Shown in pieces: positions 2,476 to 13,160 of a stretch of 64,000 bases of DNA. The notes beneath the pieces are model-generated. The model was not told the origin of the DNA. It searched no databases and worked only from the letters and a program-made list of their open reading frames with translations. A program made the position numbers and the translations under genes. Each line of letters starts with the position of its first letter. Within the stretch, counting starts at the first letter, position 1. This DNA is from Notolepis coatsorum (Eukaryota > Chordata > Actinopteri > Aulopiformes > Paralepididae), in contig OZ020586.1 of NCBI GenBank assembly GCA_963971535.1, positions 76,360,703 to 76,424,702 of the forward strand, given 5' to 3'.

Positions 2476-3305
2476 ATAGAACAGGTGAATAATTGGTATG
2501 TATGTATGTATATATACATGTAATGAAACACATATATATATATACATACATGGTAGCAATAGTATCTAAGGTACATAATAAAAGAAAATTATTTAAATAA
2601 ATAGAGCTAAGAACAACAACAAAAAAGCATAGGAAAACGAGCGCTGGTATTAAAATAAGATAACGGCTAAAAGTCCAGGCTCGGAGCTCAAAGTATCAGT
2701 CATATTCCCCAGGGGGTAGGAGAACCGCTCGGATCCAGTTGAAGTAGAGCGGGCATGGTTAGATGTCGGTCAACTGATGGCGACTGTGGTAGTCGGAACC
2801 GGTTTGAGGAAGAATAGCCGCTGCAGTCGATGCTGTTAGCCACATCAAGGACGTTGTCTGTCTAAGTCTTTTAATTCATTATTAATGAGGAGTGGGTTGA
2901 CGCTGTGTCCTTCTCCGCCAGATTTGTGTTCGTTTTGACGAACAGAAAGGTTCAGAGAGGATGAACTTTTGGAAGTGACTGATACGTTACCGTCCGCACT
3001 AGAGCTGTTGTTTCTGTAAAGGCGTGATTATGTTGGGTTAAAAAACCTTCCGTCAAATTTCGATCCGTTCATTGGCGGATCAATGTAGCCGCAGACTAAC
3101 TGTGTTTTCATGCATTTCTCTATGACTGCACGTGTATTACATTATATGAATGTTCAATTTTACATTTGACCGGGAAATTATAATCTTGTCGGCCAAAGAT
3201 GATTGGAAACCCTGGGTGTGTCGGGTACATTCTTGTGATTTTTGTGTGTTCAGATTTGGGTGTGTATAATATCCTTATTTCTGTGTGTGTTTGCTCTGGT
3301 TGCAG

Positions 3306-3350
3306 TCATTGCTCGCCAAACAGCCTCCTGTGACAGCAGGACGACCAGTG
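3306..3350 (+). CDS. dync1li1: dync1li1 exon encoding SLLAKQPPVTAGRPV
   Basis: This is a 45-bp phase-0 exon between CTCTGGTTGCAG and GTAAGAATC. Its 15 residues match the LIC1 segment that follows the conserved LQ pair, and the next exon continues directly with DATSRAPSGSPR. A 30-bp minisatellite begins about 16 bp after its donor. Confidence 0.9.
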
Positions 3351-6300
3351 GTAAGAATCTATTTATCTCTCTGTCCATCCATACCTCTATCAGTTCATCT
3401 CTCTGTCCATCCATACCTCTATCAGTTCATCTCTGTCCATCCATACCTCTATCAGTTCATCTCTGTCCATCCATACCTCTATCAGTTCATCTCTGTCCAT
3501 CCATACCTCTTATCAGTTCATATCTCTATTCATACATATATGATCTATGCACATGTATCTTGTGTTTTAAATAAATAAAACCTTTTTGTATTTAAATGTG
3601 TTTTATTTCATAAACCTTTTTGTATTTAAATGTGTTTTATTTCATTTCCAGGACGCCACTAGCAGAGCACCCAGTGGTTCTCCCAGGACAAGTAATCGGT
3701 CGGCAGCAGTCAACGTAGCCAACGCCATGCCCCAGTCAGGTACCAACCTCACTTCCAACCTTGTGCCCCAGTCAGGTACCAACCTCACTTCTAACCTCAT
3801 TCCCCAGTCAGGTACCAACCTCACTTCCAGCCTTGTGCCCCAGTCAGGTACCAACCCCACTTCTAACCTCATGCCCCAGTCAGGTACCAACCTCACTTCT
3901 AACCTCATGCCCCAGTCAGGTACCAACCTCATTTCTAACCTCTTGCCCCAGTCAGGTACCAACCTCACTTCCAACCTTGTGCCCCAGTCAGGTACCAACC
4001 TCACTTCTAACCTCATGCCCCAGTCAGGTACCAACCTCACTTCTAACCTCTTGCCCGTCAGGTACCAACCTCACTTCTAACTAGAGATGTTCCGATACCA
4101 TTTATTCCTTCCCGATCTGATTACGATACCTAAGCTTTGGATATCGGCCGATACCGATACAGATCCGATACAGTGCATACATTTTAAAAGGGGGAAAACA
4201 ATTATATTATATAAATTATAAAAAAATATATATATATTACAGCTACTGTTTTATACAGTATATACAGTTTTTTAGTAATAACTAGAAAGTAATGGTATTT
4301 ATTCAACAACAGGTGATTGTATAGATTAGTATTAGTATCATTAACTCATTGACCGCCACGCCCATATGACCAAATTAGGGCTAGCACGCCACTGCTTTAA
4401 TCAATGGGAGGACCGGGAAATTTGCGAGTGCTTAAAATATATCTTAAATTATGGCTATGGGTCTAATACACCCGTCGCTTATCAATGACTTGCTTGCAGT
4501 CAACATGTACGAAACGTTTTGAATACGAGTATAGTTTTGGAGATTTCTAGTAATTCCAGAGAAAGACGCGATAATAGCCCTTTAGTGGAATACACAAAAC
4601 ACGTTGTCATTTTTCGGCTGATTTATGAATCGTTTTCAAATAAACGCTAGATTATCGATAGTATATGTGCACAATACAAAAGTGGGCTGAAAAATCTATT
4701 ATCCGTGCCTTGCTCAGCACCGGCACGCACACACACGCACACACAGACACGTTGTGATCGCTATGAAAAAAACATCTGATTAACCCAAGACTGGTAACAT
4801 AGAGTCCTTACCTCACATCAGATGTTCTGCAAAAAGATTCATCCAATTCCTGATCGCCATTCCAAATATCGATCGCGTCCATTGATCCAACGTTAGAGTC
4901 CAAAACACATAATCCACGCTACTCCCAGTCCCCCCAGTCAACGTGGTACAATGATACTGCATGCTCATGCTACACTCAGGTACCAACCTCACTTCTAACC
5001 TCATGCCCCAGTCAGGTACCACTACCAACCTCACTTGGTCCCACCTCTATGACCTAACTTAAAAACATGACCCGATTTTAAAAACATGACCCGACTTAAA
5101 AACATGACCTGACTTAAAAACATGACCCGACTTAAAAACATGACTCGATTTAAAAACATGACTCGATTTAAAAACATGACCTGGCTTAAAAACAAAACAT
5201 GACCTGATTTAAAAACATGACCTGACTTAAAAACATGACCTGACTTAAAAACATGACTCGATTTAAAAACATGACCTGGCTTAAAAACAAAACATGACCT
5301 GATTTAAAAACATGACCTGACTTAAAAACTTGACCTGATTTAAAAATATGACCTGACTTAAAAACCTGACCTGATTTAAAAACATGACCTGACTTAAAAA
5401 CATGGCCTGACTTAAAAACATGACTCGATTTAAAAACATGACCTGGCTTAAAAACATGACCTGATTTAAAAACATGACCTGACTTAAAAACATGACCTGA
5501 TTTAAAAATATGACCTGACTTAAAAACCTGACCTGATTTAAAAACATGACCTGACTTAAAAACATGACCTGACTTAAAAACATGACTCGATTTAAAAACA
5601 TGACCTGACTCGGGCGGTGGTTAGACCTTTCGTTTAATTTTCGTTTCATTGTCATATGCGTTTCGCCGCGACGTGGCAGCCTCGAGTCACACTTTCGTTT
5701 TTGTCACCTGAGCACACTGATGTAGTACACTGCCAAAGCAGTAGGTGGCAGTAGGTGGCAAACATGAAGGCATTTTCAACCAATCATAACTTGAATGTGC
5801 CAATACACTTCCTGGAAGCTCCAGCAAAGAAAATGTCAACAAGGCAGGCGCCTATGCCGCGCCACCATCTTGCCTATTTACTCAATGCAGCAATTATTTT
5901 TCAGCAAAGCCTAATAAAAGTGCAATAAACAAAACGGATACATTCACTGTGTGTTCTGCCTGTCATTTGTTGATGAAACAAAACTAACATCAACACAAGT
6001 GACCACCAAGAGCGGATAGTTTAGTCTAAAAAAGATCGGTAGCATTGTTAGCTGCATGCTAACGTCAATGGAATTTGCCATTATAACAGTATAGCATTGT
6101 GGCTAGAAGCTAACGTTAGCTCACGCTACTTAGCCAGCACCAAACTGATGATATCGGGAGCTATCAGTAGTTAGATAACATTAGAGACAACGCTGTGTGT
6201 ATTAAACAAAGGTGAATAGATGACTGGGCCATTTTGTTTAATGCTTGTTAAGTTGAAAGAGGAGCTTTGAGCTAACATGGTCTGATAGCTCACGTTAGCC

Positions 6301-8262
6301 AGCTGCTCATGCAATCGGTAATGCTAGCAGAATGAATGGATGTAAACTTTATTTAACATATTGCATATGGGTACAATACAATACGGCTCAATACAAACCA
6401 TTGTTAAGGGAATGCAGACTGTTGTAGCTTGGACTGGGGTCCTTATAACAATAACTTGACAACACATGGTAGCTGCTGCAGCTATTTGGGACAGCTCTGC
6501 CTCTGTCCCAAACACACACACACACACTCTGTTGTCACCGGAAGGGCACGCAGATGGTATCTACTGCGCATGGGCGTTTTCGCAACAACGGCTCCGTGCA
6601 GACTACACGGCTGTTGTCGGCACGTTTTTTAGGGGTTCTCCAAAACGCAAACACAATTTAGCGTTTCAGCCGTATCCCCAAAAAAACGCCAAAAAACGCA
6701 TTTCTGTGTAATAGGGACATCAAACGTATTCAAAAACGTATAAAAACGAGCACAAAAACACTGTCTAACCCCTGCCTCAAAAGGCTTGTTTTCATAATTG
6801 TTGGAAGCCAAAATCAAGAAGAAGAAAAAAGTTGATTAAATGCCCAGCCCTAGTGTGTGTGTTTGTGTGTGTGTGTAAATGCCCAGCCCTAGTGTGTGTG
6901 TGTGTTTGTGTGTGTGTATAAATGCCCAGCCCTAGTGTGTGTGTGTATGTGTGTGAGTGAGGTGTATTCCATGGATTCAATTAAAATCCATGTAACCGGC
7001 CTGTCTCTGTATGTAGCAGGTCAAACCAGTGAGGGGGTGCTGGCTAACTTCTTCAACAGTCTGCTGACCAAAAAGGCCGGGGCAGGGAGTCCCGGGACGC
7101 CAGGCGGGGGCAACAGCACCCCAGGGACAGTACGCAAGTCAGGTAAGGGGCCGGACACACACACACACAACTTTGTTTAAACGGTTAGACCTGCAACTTG
7201 TTGTACAAGCTAGATTATTGAGTTGGGTTGAGTTGAACCAGAGTTGTCCTCCTAACAGCAATGCTGCCCTTATGAGCTCTTCTAGTCGGGCTGGACCAGT
7301 GCCGTGGAATCCATGAAAGACTACATTTCTAAAGCGTCAAATGTAGTCTTTCATTACTGTAGGTTTAAATCTACAAGCTGGGATTCATTTGATCAAGGTC
7401 AAACAGTACAAGGTGCCAATCTTCTATTAGTGTAGGTTTAAATCTACAACCTGGGATTAATTTGACAAATGTAAACTTTGGGTTTATACACATACGTCTT
7501 TGAAGATTTTGACTTGCAGACGGAAATGTATTTTTAGACGTTTTTTTTCTTTTTTTAGTAAAACTCGTGTTTATCTGAGAAGTCAAGTAAAACTCATGTT
7601 TATGAGAAATTTTGCAAAACTCATGTTTATCTGAGAAGTCGTGCAAAGCGCACGTTTATATGAGAAGTCGTGCACAACTCACGTTTATCTGAGAAGTCGT
7701 GCACAACTCGTGTTTATCTGAGAAGTTGTGCAAAACGCACGTTTATCTGAGAAGTCGTGCAAAACTCACGTTTAACTGCCACAGGCTGCCGGTCCTTGTA
7801 TCAAAGACACAGACAATACATTTCAGAGTGAAAAATGTATCTTCAGTCCAATAAATCACTAATGTTAACAAGGCCAGCTGTGGGCCATACTGGAATCATG
7901 AATTGGGCCTTTTAGTGTTGCGGTTCTACATAGGTTTGATAGGTATGTGTGTGTGAGGGAGAGTGTGAGGATTCATTCATTCATTTATTTATTTATTTAT
8001 TACATTAGTCATCAAAGTGTTTAATGTTAGTCTGTCACATCATTCCTCAGTCATTCCCATCTGTGCTTTTTCCCCTCTCATCCTTTATTCCCTCCTTTCT
8101 TCTTCCTTTGTTCTTTCTGTCCTTCCTTCGTTCTTTCTTTCTTCCCCTCCCTCTATTTTTACCTCCGTCCTCTCCTCTCCCTATACCTCTTACACCCGTC
8201 CTGTTTTTCCAGACCTCTGAAAGTGGCACATGGTCGAGAGACTCATGTCAGTGGATGATTGC

Positions 8263-8333
<71 letters not shown>

Positions 8334-11300
8334 GCACATACCACGCCTGTTTGTTACTGTGTGTGACACATCCATCTAATTCGTAGGCCCTTTTCTACAG
8401 CAGCCATTTTGAAGGGTGAACAACACAGGTGTAACTAATAAAACGACGGTTCTGCTCCATTTAGGTGCGTCAGAGAGCCAGGGTCCTGGTAGTGTACATG
8501 CCGGGCTCACTGGGTCGGCTCTGGCAAACCTAAACGGAACAGAACCACAATTCATCGTATTAGTTACATGCTGCCACGACGCGTCAAAATGGCCGCCATG
8601 AAAAGTGTGTATTCGTAACGTACAGTAGTAGCTCATAGTCTTCTGTAGGGGTGGGACGATAACGATTAATTCACAAGACTATACTGTGGCGGCATTTGGC
8701 CCTCAACAACGATAACGTCACGATACACGATATCTGTGATAATCGATATATTGCAAGACATTTAATCTACAATACAATACATGTAACTGAAGAAGAAAGG
8801 ATACCCATAAAAAGGCAAAAAGCAGGGATTATGTATCAGGGTTCGCACAAGGTCTTTGAAGTGCTTAAAGTGCTTGATTTTTTACCAAAAAAAGTCAAGG
8901 CCTGGAATTCCTTGAAAATAGCAATTTTTTTTAACAAGGTGCTTAAAAAGTAATTTTTTTTAACAAGGTGCTTAAAAAGTTATTGAAATGGAAATCAAAC
9001 ATTCGCATTGAAAGTTTTGTTCATCCATAATAAAATTGTTCTAAATCAAGAAATATAATTTTTTTTATCTAAAGTATAATTAATAGTCGGAAATTTGTTT
9101 TAAGCCATAAATATTTGATCAGAATTATTTTTTAATAAAGAAAACTGCATTTAAAAGTTCTTTTAAAATGAAAGATATTGCTTGGAAAAGTACTTTAAAG
9201 TCCTTGAATTTCATTTTGCAATGTCTGTGGGAACCCTGTTTTTTTTTTGCATAGTGCCTCTTTAAAACACACTGACTGCAACTTTGATTATTATTAATTA
9301 ACTATTAATGATGTCCCCAATGTGTATATATACATCATCTGTTTTATCTAATAAGATAACGTTTTCAGTCTGTTCACCTCATTCCAATATTTTTTATTGC
9401 AGTAAAATGGGATTGTCAAGAAATCGAGACTTGGGGTCACTGTATCTATATAATATCGGCATGCAAAATATCGCAATATATTGCTGTATCGGTTTCCCCT
9501 CCACACACCCCTATTGTTCTGTGTACAATTTCATTCTTAACATCATTCATGATATGTGTGTGTGTGTGTGTGTGCGCGCTAGTCAGGGGATGCTGGCCAC
9601 GTTAAGGTGTGTGCACAGGATGTTTGCATCGTTGCTCGTGCATCATTCCTCCTTGGAAACATCCCCCATCATCCTCCTTTGAACTCATCCCTGAACTGAG
9701 ATTCTCTTACTTTAATCAGCCCTCGTCCTCAACTAGGGATGTTCCGATCCAACTTTTTTTTGCCCCCGATTCTGATCCGAGTCATTTGGTATAAAGTTTC
9801 TGCCTGTACCGAGTCCCGATACGATATTTGTATTTTCCTAGATAATACAGCTGCACACTTAAAGCATATTAAAGTTAGTAAAAACCAATCCAGCTTAGGA
9901 AGGATATGCTTGGTCATTGAATAGCTCTGCTTAAAGAAAAGAATAGCCTCCATCACAGCTTTCCCTTTAATGATTTGCATTCATTCTTTAACAAATAAAG
10001 GATCGGAATTTGATCTGGCTTAATTTAGCTGATACCGATGAATGAATGAATGAATGAAAACTTTATTTAACAGATTGCAGAATGGGTACAATACAGTACG
10101 GCTCAATAGTACGATCAATTAAAACCTACTGGCTTCGAGTCCGATCTGGTCGGGACATCCCTATCCTCAACCCCTTAAACCTTACGCTACTTCCTCCAGC
10201 ATTCTACGAGGAAAAGTCTTTATTTATATCACAGGAGTCTGTTATATGGATATGATGCATGTAAGGTGATTATGTTTTCTTCAGGGTGTCTACAGGTCTT
10301 TTTTAGTATAGAAATTCCAGACACTGTGATATTCCCTCAATTCTGTGCGGAACACTCTATACCCATTGTCTACTGAACACTCTATACCCATTGTCTACTG
10401 AACACTATACACCCATTGTCTACTGAACACTCTATACCCATTGTCTACTGAACACTCTACACCCATTGTCTACTGAACAATCTACACCCATTGTCTACTG
10501 AACAATCTACACCCATTGTCTACTGAACACTATACACCCATTGTCTACTGAGCACTCTATACCCATTGTCTACTGAGCACTCTATACCCATTGTCTACTG
10601 AACACTATACACCCATTGTCTACTGAACACTCTACACCCATTGTCTACTGAACACTCTACACCCATTGTCTACTGAGCACTCTATACCCATTGTCTACTG
10701 AACACTCTACACCCATTGTCTATTGAACACTCTACACCCATTGTCTACTGAACAATCTACACCCATTGTCTACTGAACACTCTACACCCATTGTCTACTG
10801 AACACTCTACACCCATTGTCTACTGAACAATCTACACCCATTGTCTACTGAACAATCTACACCCATTGTCTACTGAACACTCTACACCCATTGTCTACTG
10901 AACAATCTACACCCATTGTCTACTGAGCACTATACCCATTGTCTACTGAACACTCTACACCCATTGTCTATTGAACACTCTACACCCATTGTCTACTGAA
11001 CAATCTACACCCATTGTCTACTGAACACTCTACACCCATTGTCTACTGAACAATCTACACCCATTGTCTACTGAGCACTCTATACCCATTGTCTACTGAA
11101 CACTCTACACCCATTGTCTACTGAACAATCTACACCCATTGTCTACTGAGCACTCTATACCCATTGTCTACTGAACACTATACACCCATTGTCTATTGAA
11201 CAATCTACACCCATTGTCTACTGAACAATCTACACCCATTGTCTACTGAACAATCTACACCCATTGTCTACTGAACAATCTACACCCATTGTCTACTGAA

Positions 11301-13160
11301 CACTATACACCCATTGTCTATTGAACACTCTACACCCATTGTCTACTGAACAATCTACACCCATTGTCTACTGAACAATCTATACCCATTGTCTACTGAA
11401 CACTATACACCCATTGTCTATTGAACACTCTACACCCATTGTCTACTGAACAATCTACACCCATTGTCTACTGAACACTACACCCATTGTCTACTGAACA
11501 ATCTACACCCATTGTCTACTGAACACTATACACCCATTGTCTACTGAGCACTCTATACCCATTGTCTACTGAACACTATACACCCATTGTCTACTGAACA
11601 ATCTACACCCATTGTCTACTGAACACTCTACACCCATTGTCTACTGAACACTCTACACCCATTGTCTACTGAACAATCTACACCCATTGTCTACTGAACA
11701 ATCTACACCCATTGTCTACTGAACACTATACACCCATTGTCTATTGAACAATCTACACCCATTGTCTACTGAACACTCTACACCCATTGTCTACTGAACA
11801 CTCTACACCCATTGTCTACTGAACACTATACACCCATTGTCTACTGAACAATCTACACCCATTGTCTACTGAACACTATACACCCATTGTCTACTGAACA
11901 CTATACACCCATTGTCTATTGAACACTCTATACCCATTGTCTACTGAACACTCTACACCCATTGTCTACTGAACACTCTACACCCATTGTCTACTGAACC
12001 TAGATTTTTGCTGAGATTGGCCTTACTGACCAGCATTAAAAATACTTTTAGTTTTTCTTTGTCTTGACTAGCCTGCAAACACCCTGTCATTAGTCCAGGG
12101 CCTGGGCCCATCAAACCTTATACAGATGTTGTATAGATATTATATTATATATAATCTATATATTATATAGACCTTGAACTAATACATCAGACTCCTGTGA
12201 TGACAGAAGGTCCCTCCTCTCTCTTCCTCCGTGAGAACACCCTGCCTTCATCGACATCTGTGTTCTTCTCTCTGTGCCTGACCCTGATCCCAGCCCTGTC
12301 TGTTTGCACGCTGCTGCATTTACATCTCATCACATCTGTCATCTCGAACGACCCTCCCATCCTTTGCTTCATGCTCATGTAATGTGTTCCTAACCCACGC
12401 TCCGTGCCCCCGAAACGCTCCGTTTACGGCATCTGCTGAAGTAGAATGGAAGTCGGGTATATATAGACCACCGCAACACTTCCGGTATTTTCAGCTCATG
12501 GAGGAGCGCAGGGGAGAAAATGAATGAATGTTGATGGGAGCCTTGAGGTAAGTCGTGGTTGTAGCTATGGCTGTGGGGGTGCTGGAGAGACATGATCCAA
12601 TATACATTTTTATGAGCCCAGCTGCCCAAGTCTCCTGAACACGGAGAGACCAACCCCAAGTCGATCAACACTTTTTCGGCCGAGCTATAGTCACTTTTCC
12701 ACACCTACTCTCCAAACTCTGCATGCGCAGATTGATAAACCTAGATCTCTGGACAATCCAGAGAGATTCCCGGGGCAATCTGCGCATGCGGCTATCCGTG
12801 TTACTGTTCAGGAGACTCGGGCGTATAAAAAAGTATATTGGATCATGTCTCCAGCACCCCCACAGCCGTAGCTACAACCACTTATGTCAAGGCTCTCATC
12901 AATATGCATTAGTCCCCCCCCCCCGCGCTCCTCCATGAGCTCAATGTAATGCGGAAGTGCAGTGGTCTATCGCATGCTCCTTGACTGTGCAGGTGTTCTG
13001 TGATGAAGATGTGTTGTGTGCTGTGTGGGTTGCAGGCTCAAAGCTGGGCCTGAGCGACGTGCAGGCGGAGCTGGACCGCATCTCCAGCCGGGACACCGAC
13101 CCAGACGCGACCAACGCCAACGCCAGTGAGACCTCCGCCACCGACGGCCAGGACACATGA
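3306..13160 (+). CDS. dync1li1: Cytoplasmic dynein 1 light intermediate chain 1, 3' part of gene (four exons)
   Basis: Spliced coding region: 3306-3350, 3652-3739, 7020-7142 and 13036-13160 (stop TGA 13158-13160). The product is a subunit of cytoplasmic dynein 1, the minus-end microtubule motor. In this family the N-terminal GTPase-like domain binds the heavy chain and the C-terminal tail recruits cargo adaptors; only the tail is in the window. Diagnostic strings are SLLAKQPPVTAGRPV, SGSPRTSNRS, SEGVLANFFNSLLTKK (the adaptor-binding amphipathic helix region) and LSDVQAELDRISSRD. The GRPVDA and DVQAELDR forms fit LIC1 better than LIC2. Exon phases match when spliced: 0, then a glycine codon split G/GT, then one split G/GC. 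The 5' exons are upstream of the window. One exon end is ambiguous because its donor is repeated in a minisatellite. Confidence 0.93.
3366..3530 (+). repeat. 30-bp minisatellite just after a dync1li1 splice donor
   Basis: About five units of roughly 30 bp based on CTGTCCATCCATACCTCTAT followed by CAGTTCATCT. The first unit starts about 16 bp inside the intron. Units differ by small CT indels. This explains the proline/serine-rich reading frames across this interval. Confidence 0.9.
3652..3739 (+). CDS. dync1li1: dync1li1 exon with repeated splice donor (shortest form given)
   Basis: The acceptor is TTTCATTTCCAG at 3651. The exon reads DATSRAPSGSPRTSNRS and then AAVNVANAMPQS, 29 codons plus one base (phase 1). 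The first donor is CAGTCAG/GTACCA with the intron starting at 3740. The same donor recurs every 36 bp (intron starts 3776, 3812, 3848, 3884, 3920, 3956, 3992, 4028) in the same phase with no stop codon between, so any of the nine could end the exon. Using a later one adds whole 12-residue blocks of the type TNLTSNLVPQSG. Joined to the next exon, each gives a glycine codon and then QTSEGV. Which donor is used cannot be told from sequence alone. Confidence 0.82.
3722..4080 (+). repeat. 36-bp exonic/intronic minisatellite carrying a 5' splice site in every unit
   Basis: About ten units of CCCCAGTCAGGTACCAACCT followed by CACTTCTAACCTCATG. Each has the donor-like CAG/GTACCA. Nine units are exactly 36 bp. 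The last (donor at 4062) has lost 2 bp, which shifts the frame. The array resumes at 4976-5036 with one or two more units, so 4081-4975 looks like later inserted material. The frames on both strands are repeat artefacts except for the + frame continuous with exon 3652. Confidence 0.93.
4081..4975. mobile_element. Mobile-element remnants inserted in the donor minisatellite
   Basis: Opens with TAGAGATGTTCCGATACC, the terminal motif of a hAT family seen complete at 9734-10163. A second block from about 4338 begins TTAACTCATTGACCGCCACG and resembles blocks near 1132 and 57915. No matching right terminus was found, so the boundaries rest on where the 36-bp array stops and restarts. A CA tract lies near 4730. 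No coding sequence is seen. Confidence 0.5.
5057..5612 (+). repeat. 18-19-bp minisatellite (TTAAAAACATGACCTGAC)
   Basis: About 30 tandem copies of an 18-19-bp unit alternating between TGACCTGACTTAAAAACA and TGACCTGATTTAAAAACA, with occasional larger units (AAAACAAAACATG). The 124-residue minus-strand frame with repeated FLSQVM/FLNQVM blocks is a by-product of this array. Confidence 0.93.
5612..6783. mobile_element. Non-autonomous Harbinger-like element, copy 1
   Basis: About 1.17 kb, closely similar along its length to 55548-56723. The ends are imperfect inverted repeats: GGTGGTTAGACCTTTCG on the left, and on the right a sequence whose reverse complement is GAGGCAGGGGTTAGACAG. It contains a minus-strand LINE tail from about 6330 (AACTTTATTTAACATATTGC). 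No transposase frame. The superfamily is taken from copy 2, which has a clean TTA target duplication. Confidence 0.65.
6850..6956 (+). repeat. TG-rich minisatellite, about 40-bp unit
   Basis: Three copies of AAATGCCCAGCCCTAGTGTG followed by a TG run. It ends about 60 bp upstream of the dync1li1 exon at 7020. Confidence 0.85.
7020..7142 (+). CDS. dync1li1: dync1li1 exon encoding the SEGVLANFFNSLLTKK adaptor-binding segment
   Basis: The 123-bp exon lies between ATGTAGCAG and GTAAGGGGC. It completes a glycine codon (GT), encodes 40 residues QTSEGVLANFFNSLLTKK... to RKS, and leaves one G. The FFNSLL helix is the best conserved part of the light intermediate chain tail and, in the known family, contacts cargo adaptors. 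A glycine/proline linker follows. Confidence 0.93.
7555..7775 (+). repeat. ~30-bp minisatellite (GTTTATCTGAGAAGTCGTGC)
   Basis: About seven units of GTTTATCTGAGAAGTCGTGC followed by AAAACTCAC, with single-base differences and some short units. Confidence 0.88.
8268..8333 (+). repeat. (CT)n microsatellite
   Basis: About 66 bp of CT repeat with a single TTT interruption. Confidence 0.97.
8391..8602. mobile_element. Foldback (palindromic) MITE-like element
   Basis: The arms around GTGTAACTAATAAAACGACG and GGTTCTGCTCCATTTAGGT pair with the reverse complement of the right side, which reads TGTAACTAATACGATG and then GGTTCTGTTCCGTTTAGGT. The outer ends share an AGCAGCCATTTTGA / TCAAAATGGCCGCC motif. 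No target duplication was established. Confidence 0.6.
8646..9513. mobile_element. hAT-type element (TAGGGGTGGGACGATAA end) with nested hAT
   Basis: Left end TAGGGGTGGGACGATAACG; right end reads into CACACACCCCTA, which is inverted to the left end at the tip. The flanking 8-mers are GTCTTCTG and TTGTTCTG (six of eight identical). A second element, 8837-9238, sits inside it with ends CAGGGTTCGCACA and TGTGGGAACCCTG. No transposase frame. Confidence 0.6.
8837..9238. mobile_element. Nested hAT MITE with CAGGGTTC ends
   Basis: Terminal inverted repeats are CAGGGTTCGCACAAGGTC and, on the opposite strand, CAGGGTTCCCACAGACATTG. The body contains repeated AAGTGCTTAAAGTGCTTGA-like words typical of this fish family. 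The target duplication is not clear. Confidence 0.65.
9734..10163. mobile_element. hAT element with TAGGGATGTTCCGAT ends and perfect 8-bp target duplication
   Basis: Left end TAGGGATGTTCCGATCC; right end GGTCGGGACATCCCTA. The flanks are TCCTCAAC at 9726-9733 and TCCTCAAC at 10164-10171, a perfect 8-bp target duplication as expected for hAT. A minus-strand LINE tail (AAAACTTTATTTAACAGATT) is inserted near 10034-10115. No coding capacity. Confidence 0.85.
10347..11999 (+). repeat. 25-bp minisatellite, about 66 copies
   Basis: Unit CACCCATTGTCTACTGAACA plus CTCTA or a variant (ATCTA, CTATA). Variant units (CTCTAC, AATCTAC, CTATAC, GAGCAC, TATTGAA) recur in mixed order, which points to repeated multi-unit expansion. 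At least one unit is truncated (near 10928). There are no spacers of different sequence, so this is a simple tandem array. Confidence 0.97.
12170..12322 (+). repeat. Left segment of a local duplication (matches 15280-15440)
   Basis: From TTGAACTAATACATCAGACT to TGTTTGCACGCTGCTGC this matches 15280-15440 closely, apart from a 9-bp and a ~20-bp insertion in the second copy. The copy then continues with sequence matching 13470-13655, skipping the terminal dync1li1 exon. Confidence 0.8.
12463..12971. mobile_element. Palindromic (foldback) element in the last dync1li1 intron
   Basis: The left arm starts ATAGACCACCGCAACACTTC and the right arm, inverted, starts ATAGACCACTGCACTTCCGC. Both continue through GCTCATGGAGGAGCGC, GGTTGTAGCTA and GGGGGTGCTGGAGA, then ATGATCCAATATAC. 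The arms are about 200 bp around a ~100-bp centre. A poly-C/poly-G tract sits in the right arm. A non-autonomous DNA transposon is likely; superfamily not determined. Confidence 0.75.
13036..13160 (+). CDS. dync1li1: dync1li1 terminal coding exon
   Basis: The acceptor is GGGTTGCAG. The exon completes a glycine codon, encodes SKLGLSDVQAELDRISSRDT followed by an Asp/Asn/Ala/Thr-rich tail ending in DGQDT, and stops at TGA 13158-13160. The DVQAELDRIS block is the C-terminal signature of light intermediate chain 1. The acidic tail differs from the mammalian end, as expected for a fast-evolving terminus. Confidence 0.93.

Follow-up and report, generated by a model that had tools for sequence, protein, structure and literature searches.

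A minisatellite spanning an exon-intron boundary carries nine in-frame copies of a dync1li1 splice donor in Notolepis coatsorum

Results

The dync1li1 locus

The window that we analysed is a 64,000-bp stretch (G000:C7:76360703-76424702) of the 3.42-Gb genome of Notolepis coatsorum. A genome search with a fish LIC1 protein (P0018) gave 17 matches, 11 of which belong to dync1li1 and lie on a single strand, plus, at C7:76345292-76373859; the other six, all on C4, belong to dync1li2. The four dync1li1 exons in Table 1 were read in a single translated frame, and the orthologous LIC1 exons stand in order on the plus strand with adaptor-binding helix 1 included. Exon order, homologues and genome matches agree on the name dync1li1 given in a first-pass annotation of this DNA, and its placing of the adaptor-binding helix in the exon downstream of a repeat array was borne out, as helix 1 in that exon matches the LIC1 peptides of PDB 6b9h and 6psd. 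By bit score, the closest of the 130 proteins compared were Aplochiton P0025 (90%, 492 columns), P0027 and Osmerus P0021.

Table 1. Features of the dync1li1 region, in positions of the window (a solidus within a splice site marks the cut)
Feature	Position	Strand	Basis and remarks
dync1li1 exon, SLLAKQPPVTAGRPV	3306..3350	+	translation, homologues; donor GTG/GTAAGA, 7.95 bits (human matrix)
Next exon, ancestral form, DATSRAPSGSPRTSNRSAAVNVANAMPQS-G, ending at donor 1	3652..3739	+	41 of 120 best-listed homologues join exactly there
36-bp minisatellite across exon-intron boundary, consensus CATGCCCCAGTCAG/GTACCAACCTCACTTCTAACCT	3726..4081	+	TRF, unit table
Nine in-frame donors, TCAG/GTACCA (first intron base)	3740, 3776, 3812, 3848, 3884, 3920, 3956, 3992, 4028	+	sequence, translation
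Donor 10, CCCGTCAG/GTACC (first intron base)	4062	+	unit minus 2 bp; use would truncate protein
Segment splitting the array, beginning TAGAGATGTTCCGATACC	4082..4975	+	sequence
Further array sequence past the insert	4976..5036	+	donors with exon ends 4979 and 5015, out of frame
18-bp minisatellite, same intron	5049..5610	+	TRF
Tandem acceptor TAG/CAG/G	7014..7019	+	splicing to the first AG would insert an Ala (MPQSAGQTSEG), to the second would give MPQSGQTSEG
Exon encoding adaptor-binding helix 1 (QTSEGVLANFFNSLLTKK), followed by donor CAG/GTAAGG	7020..7142	+	translation, PDB match
Last coding exon and stop of dync1li1	13036..13160 (stop 13158-13160)	+	translation

A 36-bp array across the donor

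The second of these exons ends within a minisatellite (TRF: period 36, 9.9 copies, 90% matches, 0% indels) whose unit runs CATGCCCCAGTCAG/GTACC over exon end 3739. Because the repeat consensus includes the end of the exon (CATGCCCCAGTCAG) as well as the start of the intron (GTACC), the unit runs over the boundary, and from its composition we infer that it is about 14 exonic and 22 intronic bases, over an old, weak donor, that were amplified. The motif TCAGGTACC marks an exon end at 3739 + 36k for k = 0-8 (to 4027) and then at 4061, 4979 and 5015; the first nine donors leave phase 1 and the last three phase 2. The donor 9-mer is identical in all 12 copies, and all eight full units share the same 10 bases upstream of the cut and the same 9 bases downstream of it. 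Genome-wide there were at least 11 copies of the motif with up to 3 mismatches (such counts being lower bounds), and 11/11 were at this locus (reversed control, 0); this search of one assembly, at up to 3 mismatches, found the motif nowhere else in the genome.

When joined to the exon at 7020, all nine phase-1 donors translated into SEGVLANFF, and the full products of donors 3739, 3775 and 4027 with acceptors 7017 and 7020 (6/6) reached the native stop. The annotation had claimed a nine-fold, in-frame multiplication of a dync1li1 donor, each copy joining correctly to the QTSEGV exon, and both points held. It was also right that a tenth unit with a 2-bp loss shifts the frame: the donor 4061 product stops after LLPVRSNQ or LLPVSRSNQ, depending on the acceptor. 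Its count of nine in-frame donors plus a tenth was accurate but incomplete, as two more copies end the exon at 4979 and 5015; with either of these, a stop falls just after unit 10, before the junction.

By their variable residue the units run V I V M M L V M L, an order that suggests block duplication, and because unit types recur in blocks a change in repeat number is plausible. Judging by the two copies beyond the insert, the array was formerly longer and was later split by ~0.9 kb. Its first bases suggest that this insert may be hAT-like; no terminal inverted repeats were found, an inverted-repeat search of 4040-5060 giving only an AT palindrome. The start of the insert (TAGAGATGTTCCGATACC) resembles 9734-9750 (TAGGGATGTTCCGATCC), a likeness that perhaps reflects a mobile element family, and the top-scoring donor-like site in 3652-5300 is within the insert (4310-4318, CAG/GTGATT, 8.42 bits, human matrix). 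A separate 25-bp minisatellite of 66 copies (10350-11999, TRF) occupies the last intron of dync1li1.

Donor strength and constraint on the units

On a human matrix, applied here to fish donors, the array donor CAG/GTACCA is weak (3.58 bits versus 4.02-11.41 for ten other placed donors); for an exon ending near L028:5002 the nearest GT scored -0.89 bits, and the placement of its donor is unsettled. Among the 3955 GT sites in the window, 490 scored at least 3.58 bits. Tandem repeats make up ~19% of the window (12,270 of 64,000 bp, in 45 hand-merged TRF loci), and since it is so rich in arrays, the landing of one on a donor is not astonishing.

The eight full units have seven variable columns, two purely synonymous and five not, and their changes look protein-neutral, about as in unconstrained sequence. 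The annotation's remark that no stop lies between the donors is true, but it carries little weight: a shuffled unit was open in a given frame in 73% of 20,000 trials, and the repeat itself is open in three of six frames (two plus, one minus). We dropped the lack of stop codons as functional evidence because openness is so common in shuffled units, and likewise dropped donor conservation as functional proof, the chance that none of the seven variable columns would fall in the nine donor positions being ~0.11 by hand calculation. A protein search with the array itself gave no hit at E <= 10 among 8000 scored candidates, though the matches listed also included no close relative of the host (nearest, 90%). 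No relatives were found in viral contigs (21 stretches matched a pattern, none of them confirmed), and no Rfam family was found in 3300-7200 at gathering scores.

Homologues and the ancestral junction

A homologue search with the protein tail gave 417 matches, the best 120 of which we read. Of these, 41 read PQ(S/A)(A)GQTSEG, as splicing from donor 1 to one or the other acceptor would give; 22 were of a short MQSG(G)QTSEG type, 24 had a long tail beginning KK(I/F)D(P/H), and 33 had other junctions, many being database models that read into the intron. The extra alanine of the PQSAG junction occurred in seven of the 120, including Oncorhynchus, Esox, Osmerus and Aplochiton. Because 41 of the 120 best-listed homologues join at precisely that point, donor 1 is by this comparison the ancestral junction. 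In reading frame donors 1-9 are interchangeable, as had been claimed; the implied picture of nine equals was not sustained, donor 1 being set apart by its homologues.

Judged by protein organism names, we take all 24 long forms to be outside Euteleostei (herrings, catfishes, characins, knifefishes, carps, loaches, milkfish, tarpon, halosaur, moray, bonefish, gar and sturgeon). Long and short isoforms with the same flanks, all of them database models, were available for Sardina (P0057/P0039), Megalops (P0067/P0042), Silurus (P0064/P0038) and Denticeps (P0092/P0073). In these models of earlier-branching fishes, the boundary at donor 1 is thus annotated as an alternative donor. Among the matches listed, the KKIDPN tail was absent from euteleost proteins. 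The 22 short MQ-type proteins include three from euteleosts (Oncorhynchus P0107 and P0110, Umbra P0114). A fourth euteleost protein, Dallia P0123, reads MQPGTSRSKGGQ / MQPGTSRSKGGQTSEG, which may be what is left of the long-form tail; because of these proteins, euteleost loss of the downstream donor may be incomplete.

In dync1li2 of the host, the homologous exon ends with that long tail, reading on to TAVKKPDPNLKG (reading frame, GSPLTAVKKPDPNLKG) before a donor-like AAGG/GTGAGC (8.72 bits, human matrix) in the same phase as the dync1li1 donor, and the dync1li2 acceptor at L025 has that phase too. At L025 1621-3123, the helix-1 exon of dync1li2 enters a stretch of N, either an assembly gap or withheld sequence, and its 3' end is unreadable there. 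Given the long and short isoforms of non-euteleost fishes, and this long reading frame with a donor-like end in dync1li2, a strong downstream donor was most likely present in the ancestral exon, with early-teleost LIC1 also using the upstream QSG/GTACC donor. By this comparison, the minisatellite multiplied the upstream donor of an ancestral pair. The alternative donors of non-euteleost dync1li1 (short MQSG versus MQSG-TKKIDPNMKG) resemble the host array in exon, in the upstream donor and in offering an in-frame choice of linker length, but there are two of them ~30 nt apart, whereas the host array has nine at 36-nt steps.

The stretch between NVANAM and SEGV would measure 6 residues for donor 1 and 18 for donor 2, each further donor adding 12, up to 102. 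This spacing was 6-8 residues in 63 and 18 residues in 25 of the 113 proteins parsed out of 130. By arithmetic only, the 12 residues added to the donor 1 product mean that donor 2 would recreate the spacing of the long form.

A duplicated donor in salmonid gene models

Two O. mykiss models (P0087 and P0093) read MPQSGTPCPVPQS(A)GQTSEG, alongside MPQSAGQTSEG (P0049), and Salmo model P0090 reads MPQSGTPCSMPQSG. The salmonid units, TPCPVPQSG and TPCSMPQSG, represent a 9-residue duplication of the same donor region. Among 22 proteins with PQSG followed by T, M or R, PQS was repeated in three (P0087, P0090 and P0093), and a search with the trout tail (best 120 of 136 matches) gave 10 new proteins, none with a further repeat of the salmonid type. 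In O. mykiss dync1li1, as in the host, the PQSG donor is repeated, there once, with both copies represented among the models; it differs in its 9-residue unit (TPCPVPQSG) and in having two copies only. Since the sequence of its unit differs from the 36-bp unit, the duplicated donor of trout is likely an independent parallel.

Complementarity to a neighbouring 18-bp array

The 18-bp minisatellite in the same intron contains ACCTGACT, which is exactly complementary to the donor core AGTCAGGT and so matches across the splice junction; the 11 copies in the intron lie at 5107-5610, and one copy occurs in the window outside 3652-7142. In a predicted fold of 3652-5640, the 8 nt around the nine cuts paired with the 18-bp array at a mean of 0.74, versus 0.12-0.34 in 11 dinucleotide shuffles, and the fold energy was -390 kcal/mol, versus -352 to -372 kcal/mol in 11 shuffles of the 18-bp array. 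The unpaired fraction around the cuts was little changed (0.25 versus 0.30-0.39 in shuffles), the cuts being mostly paired either way. Across 33 array consensuses, both strands, this complementarity was the second longest shared word. It may be chance, because another array has a longer word (9) in common with the unit, and we regard the predicted pairing of the two arrays as a lead only. In insect Dscam, docking and selector sequences pair, to which masking by an array can be likened: a donor array with an "anti-donor" array ~1 kb downstream could pair to mask varying numbers of donors and so set the reach of U1, making a linker dial of 6-102 residues. Since donor 2 alone would give 18 residues, as in the long form absent from the listed euteleost proteins, the array may in this view have restored a lost isoform. 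We consider this whole picture a very long shot.

Discussion

Tandem repeats at exon-intron boundaries are already known; what is new in dync1li1 of the host is their multiplicity and place. Boundary tandem repeats in human genes do yield alternative splicing (PMC2812944). The human segmental-duplication genes described there share with the host minisatellites with units of ~30 bp, some at exon-intron boundaries, and have alternative splice patterns; as reported, these boundary cases concern novel introns in recently duplicated genes, whereas the host has one conserved donor in nine in-phase repeats, and the motor gene concerned is itself conserved and listed only once. A second likeness is to duplication of proto-splice sites, in which short tandem units each hold a potential splice site (PMC4974935, PMC3629103), e.g., the Rogers AGGT model of intron gain, as told in PMC4974935 with a potato case, and the 24-nt repeats with AGGC that became introns in fission yeast (PMC3629103). 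The host units carry AG/GT and an acceptor-like CCCCAG. Proto-splice-site duplication, as these accounts have it, makes a new intron, whereas the host array, known from genomic sequence alone, multiplies the donor of an existing one. In the literature on donor-spanning repeats, duplication intron gain, fish genomes and DYNC1LI1, mostly at title or abstract level, we found no array of such kind. The aspects that stand out are the number, identity and phase of the donor copies and their position in the protein.

We propose that ordinary minisatellite turnover amplified a boundary unit until the donor stood in twelve copies, the first nine in the same phase. Donor 1 would stay the main site and U1 would use some later copies at lower frequency, which would yield an isoform ladder in 12-residue TNLTSNL(V/M/I/L)PQSG steps ahead of adaptor-binding helix 1. 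Such an array would be tolerated, since donors 1-9 all keep the frame and the linker that they lengthen is disordered. We think this stuttering use of later copies, with donor 1 as the main site, somewhat probable.

The array could instead be a silent intronic minisatellite, with donor 1 alone used, fixed by exon definition and the exon's enhancers, and copies 2-12 inert. The conserved junction at donor 1 and the neutral look of the units would fit this, and with ~19% of the window in tandem repeats, arrays at random places are expected; however, with the flanks of the cut identical in all eight full units, little local sequence distinguishes donor 1 from donor 2, and trout models use a duplicated donor. 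An intron-proximal donor can also win, as in DOK7, where nearby donors compete and SRSF1 promotes use of the one closer to the intron; that site is the preferred one of the pair, though it is also the stronger there (PMC5585400). A wholly silent array seems to us rather unlikely. The DOK7 case, together with the frame left open through unit 9, would equally suit an array that is mainly exonic, with the most intron-proximal in-frame donor (4027) dominating and eight extra units forming a coding VNTR. That reading we find improbable: donor 10 and the copies past the insert, which have the same 9-mer, should then win and truncate the protein, the array is in none of the homologues listed, and coding constraint was not seen in the units.

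Donors 10-12, or mini-introns within the array, might also give frame-shifted or decayed RNA, making the array an expression damper or a plain liability. Early stops from donors 10-12 point this way, as do a branch-point-like TTC(T/C)AAC in most units and the acceptor-like CCCCAG in all full units, and tandem repeats with proto-splice sites did become introns in fission yeast (PMC3629103, PMC4974935). Internal loss of multiples of 36 bp would, however, be in frame and not damaging, and none of the present results bears on expression level; we give this outcome very little chance.

The end of NVANAM in the window presumably corresponds to residues 418-421 of human LIC1. In human LIC1, residues 418-421 contribute to Spindly binding, helix 1 comprises residues 440-455, and five of six adaptors bind less well when residues N-terminal to helix 1 are removed (PMC6336354). 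A variable stretch, if real, would presumably have helix 1 on one side and, by human numbering, residues that reportedly contact an adaptor on the other. Use of later donors would make this a natural series in which one acceptor is fed by as many as nine evenly spaced donors of identical sequence that all keep the frame. The influence of spacing and order on the choice of 5' splice site could then be tested directly in vivo for a constant motif, and mutation in repeat number would be coupled to the length of the encoded protein, a core motor subunit. More generally, the locus would illustrate how an intron boundary can gain coding units stepwise without breaking the gene.
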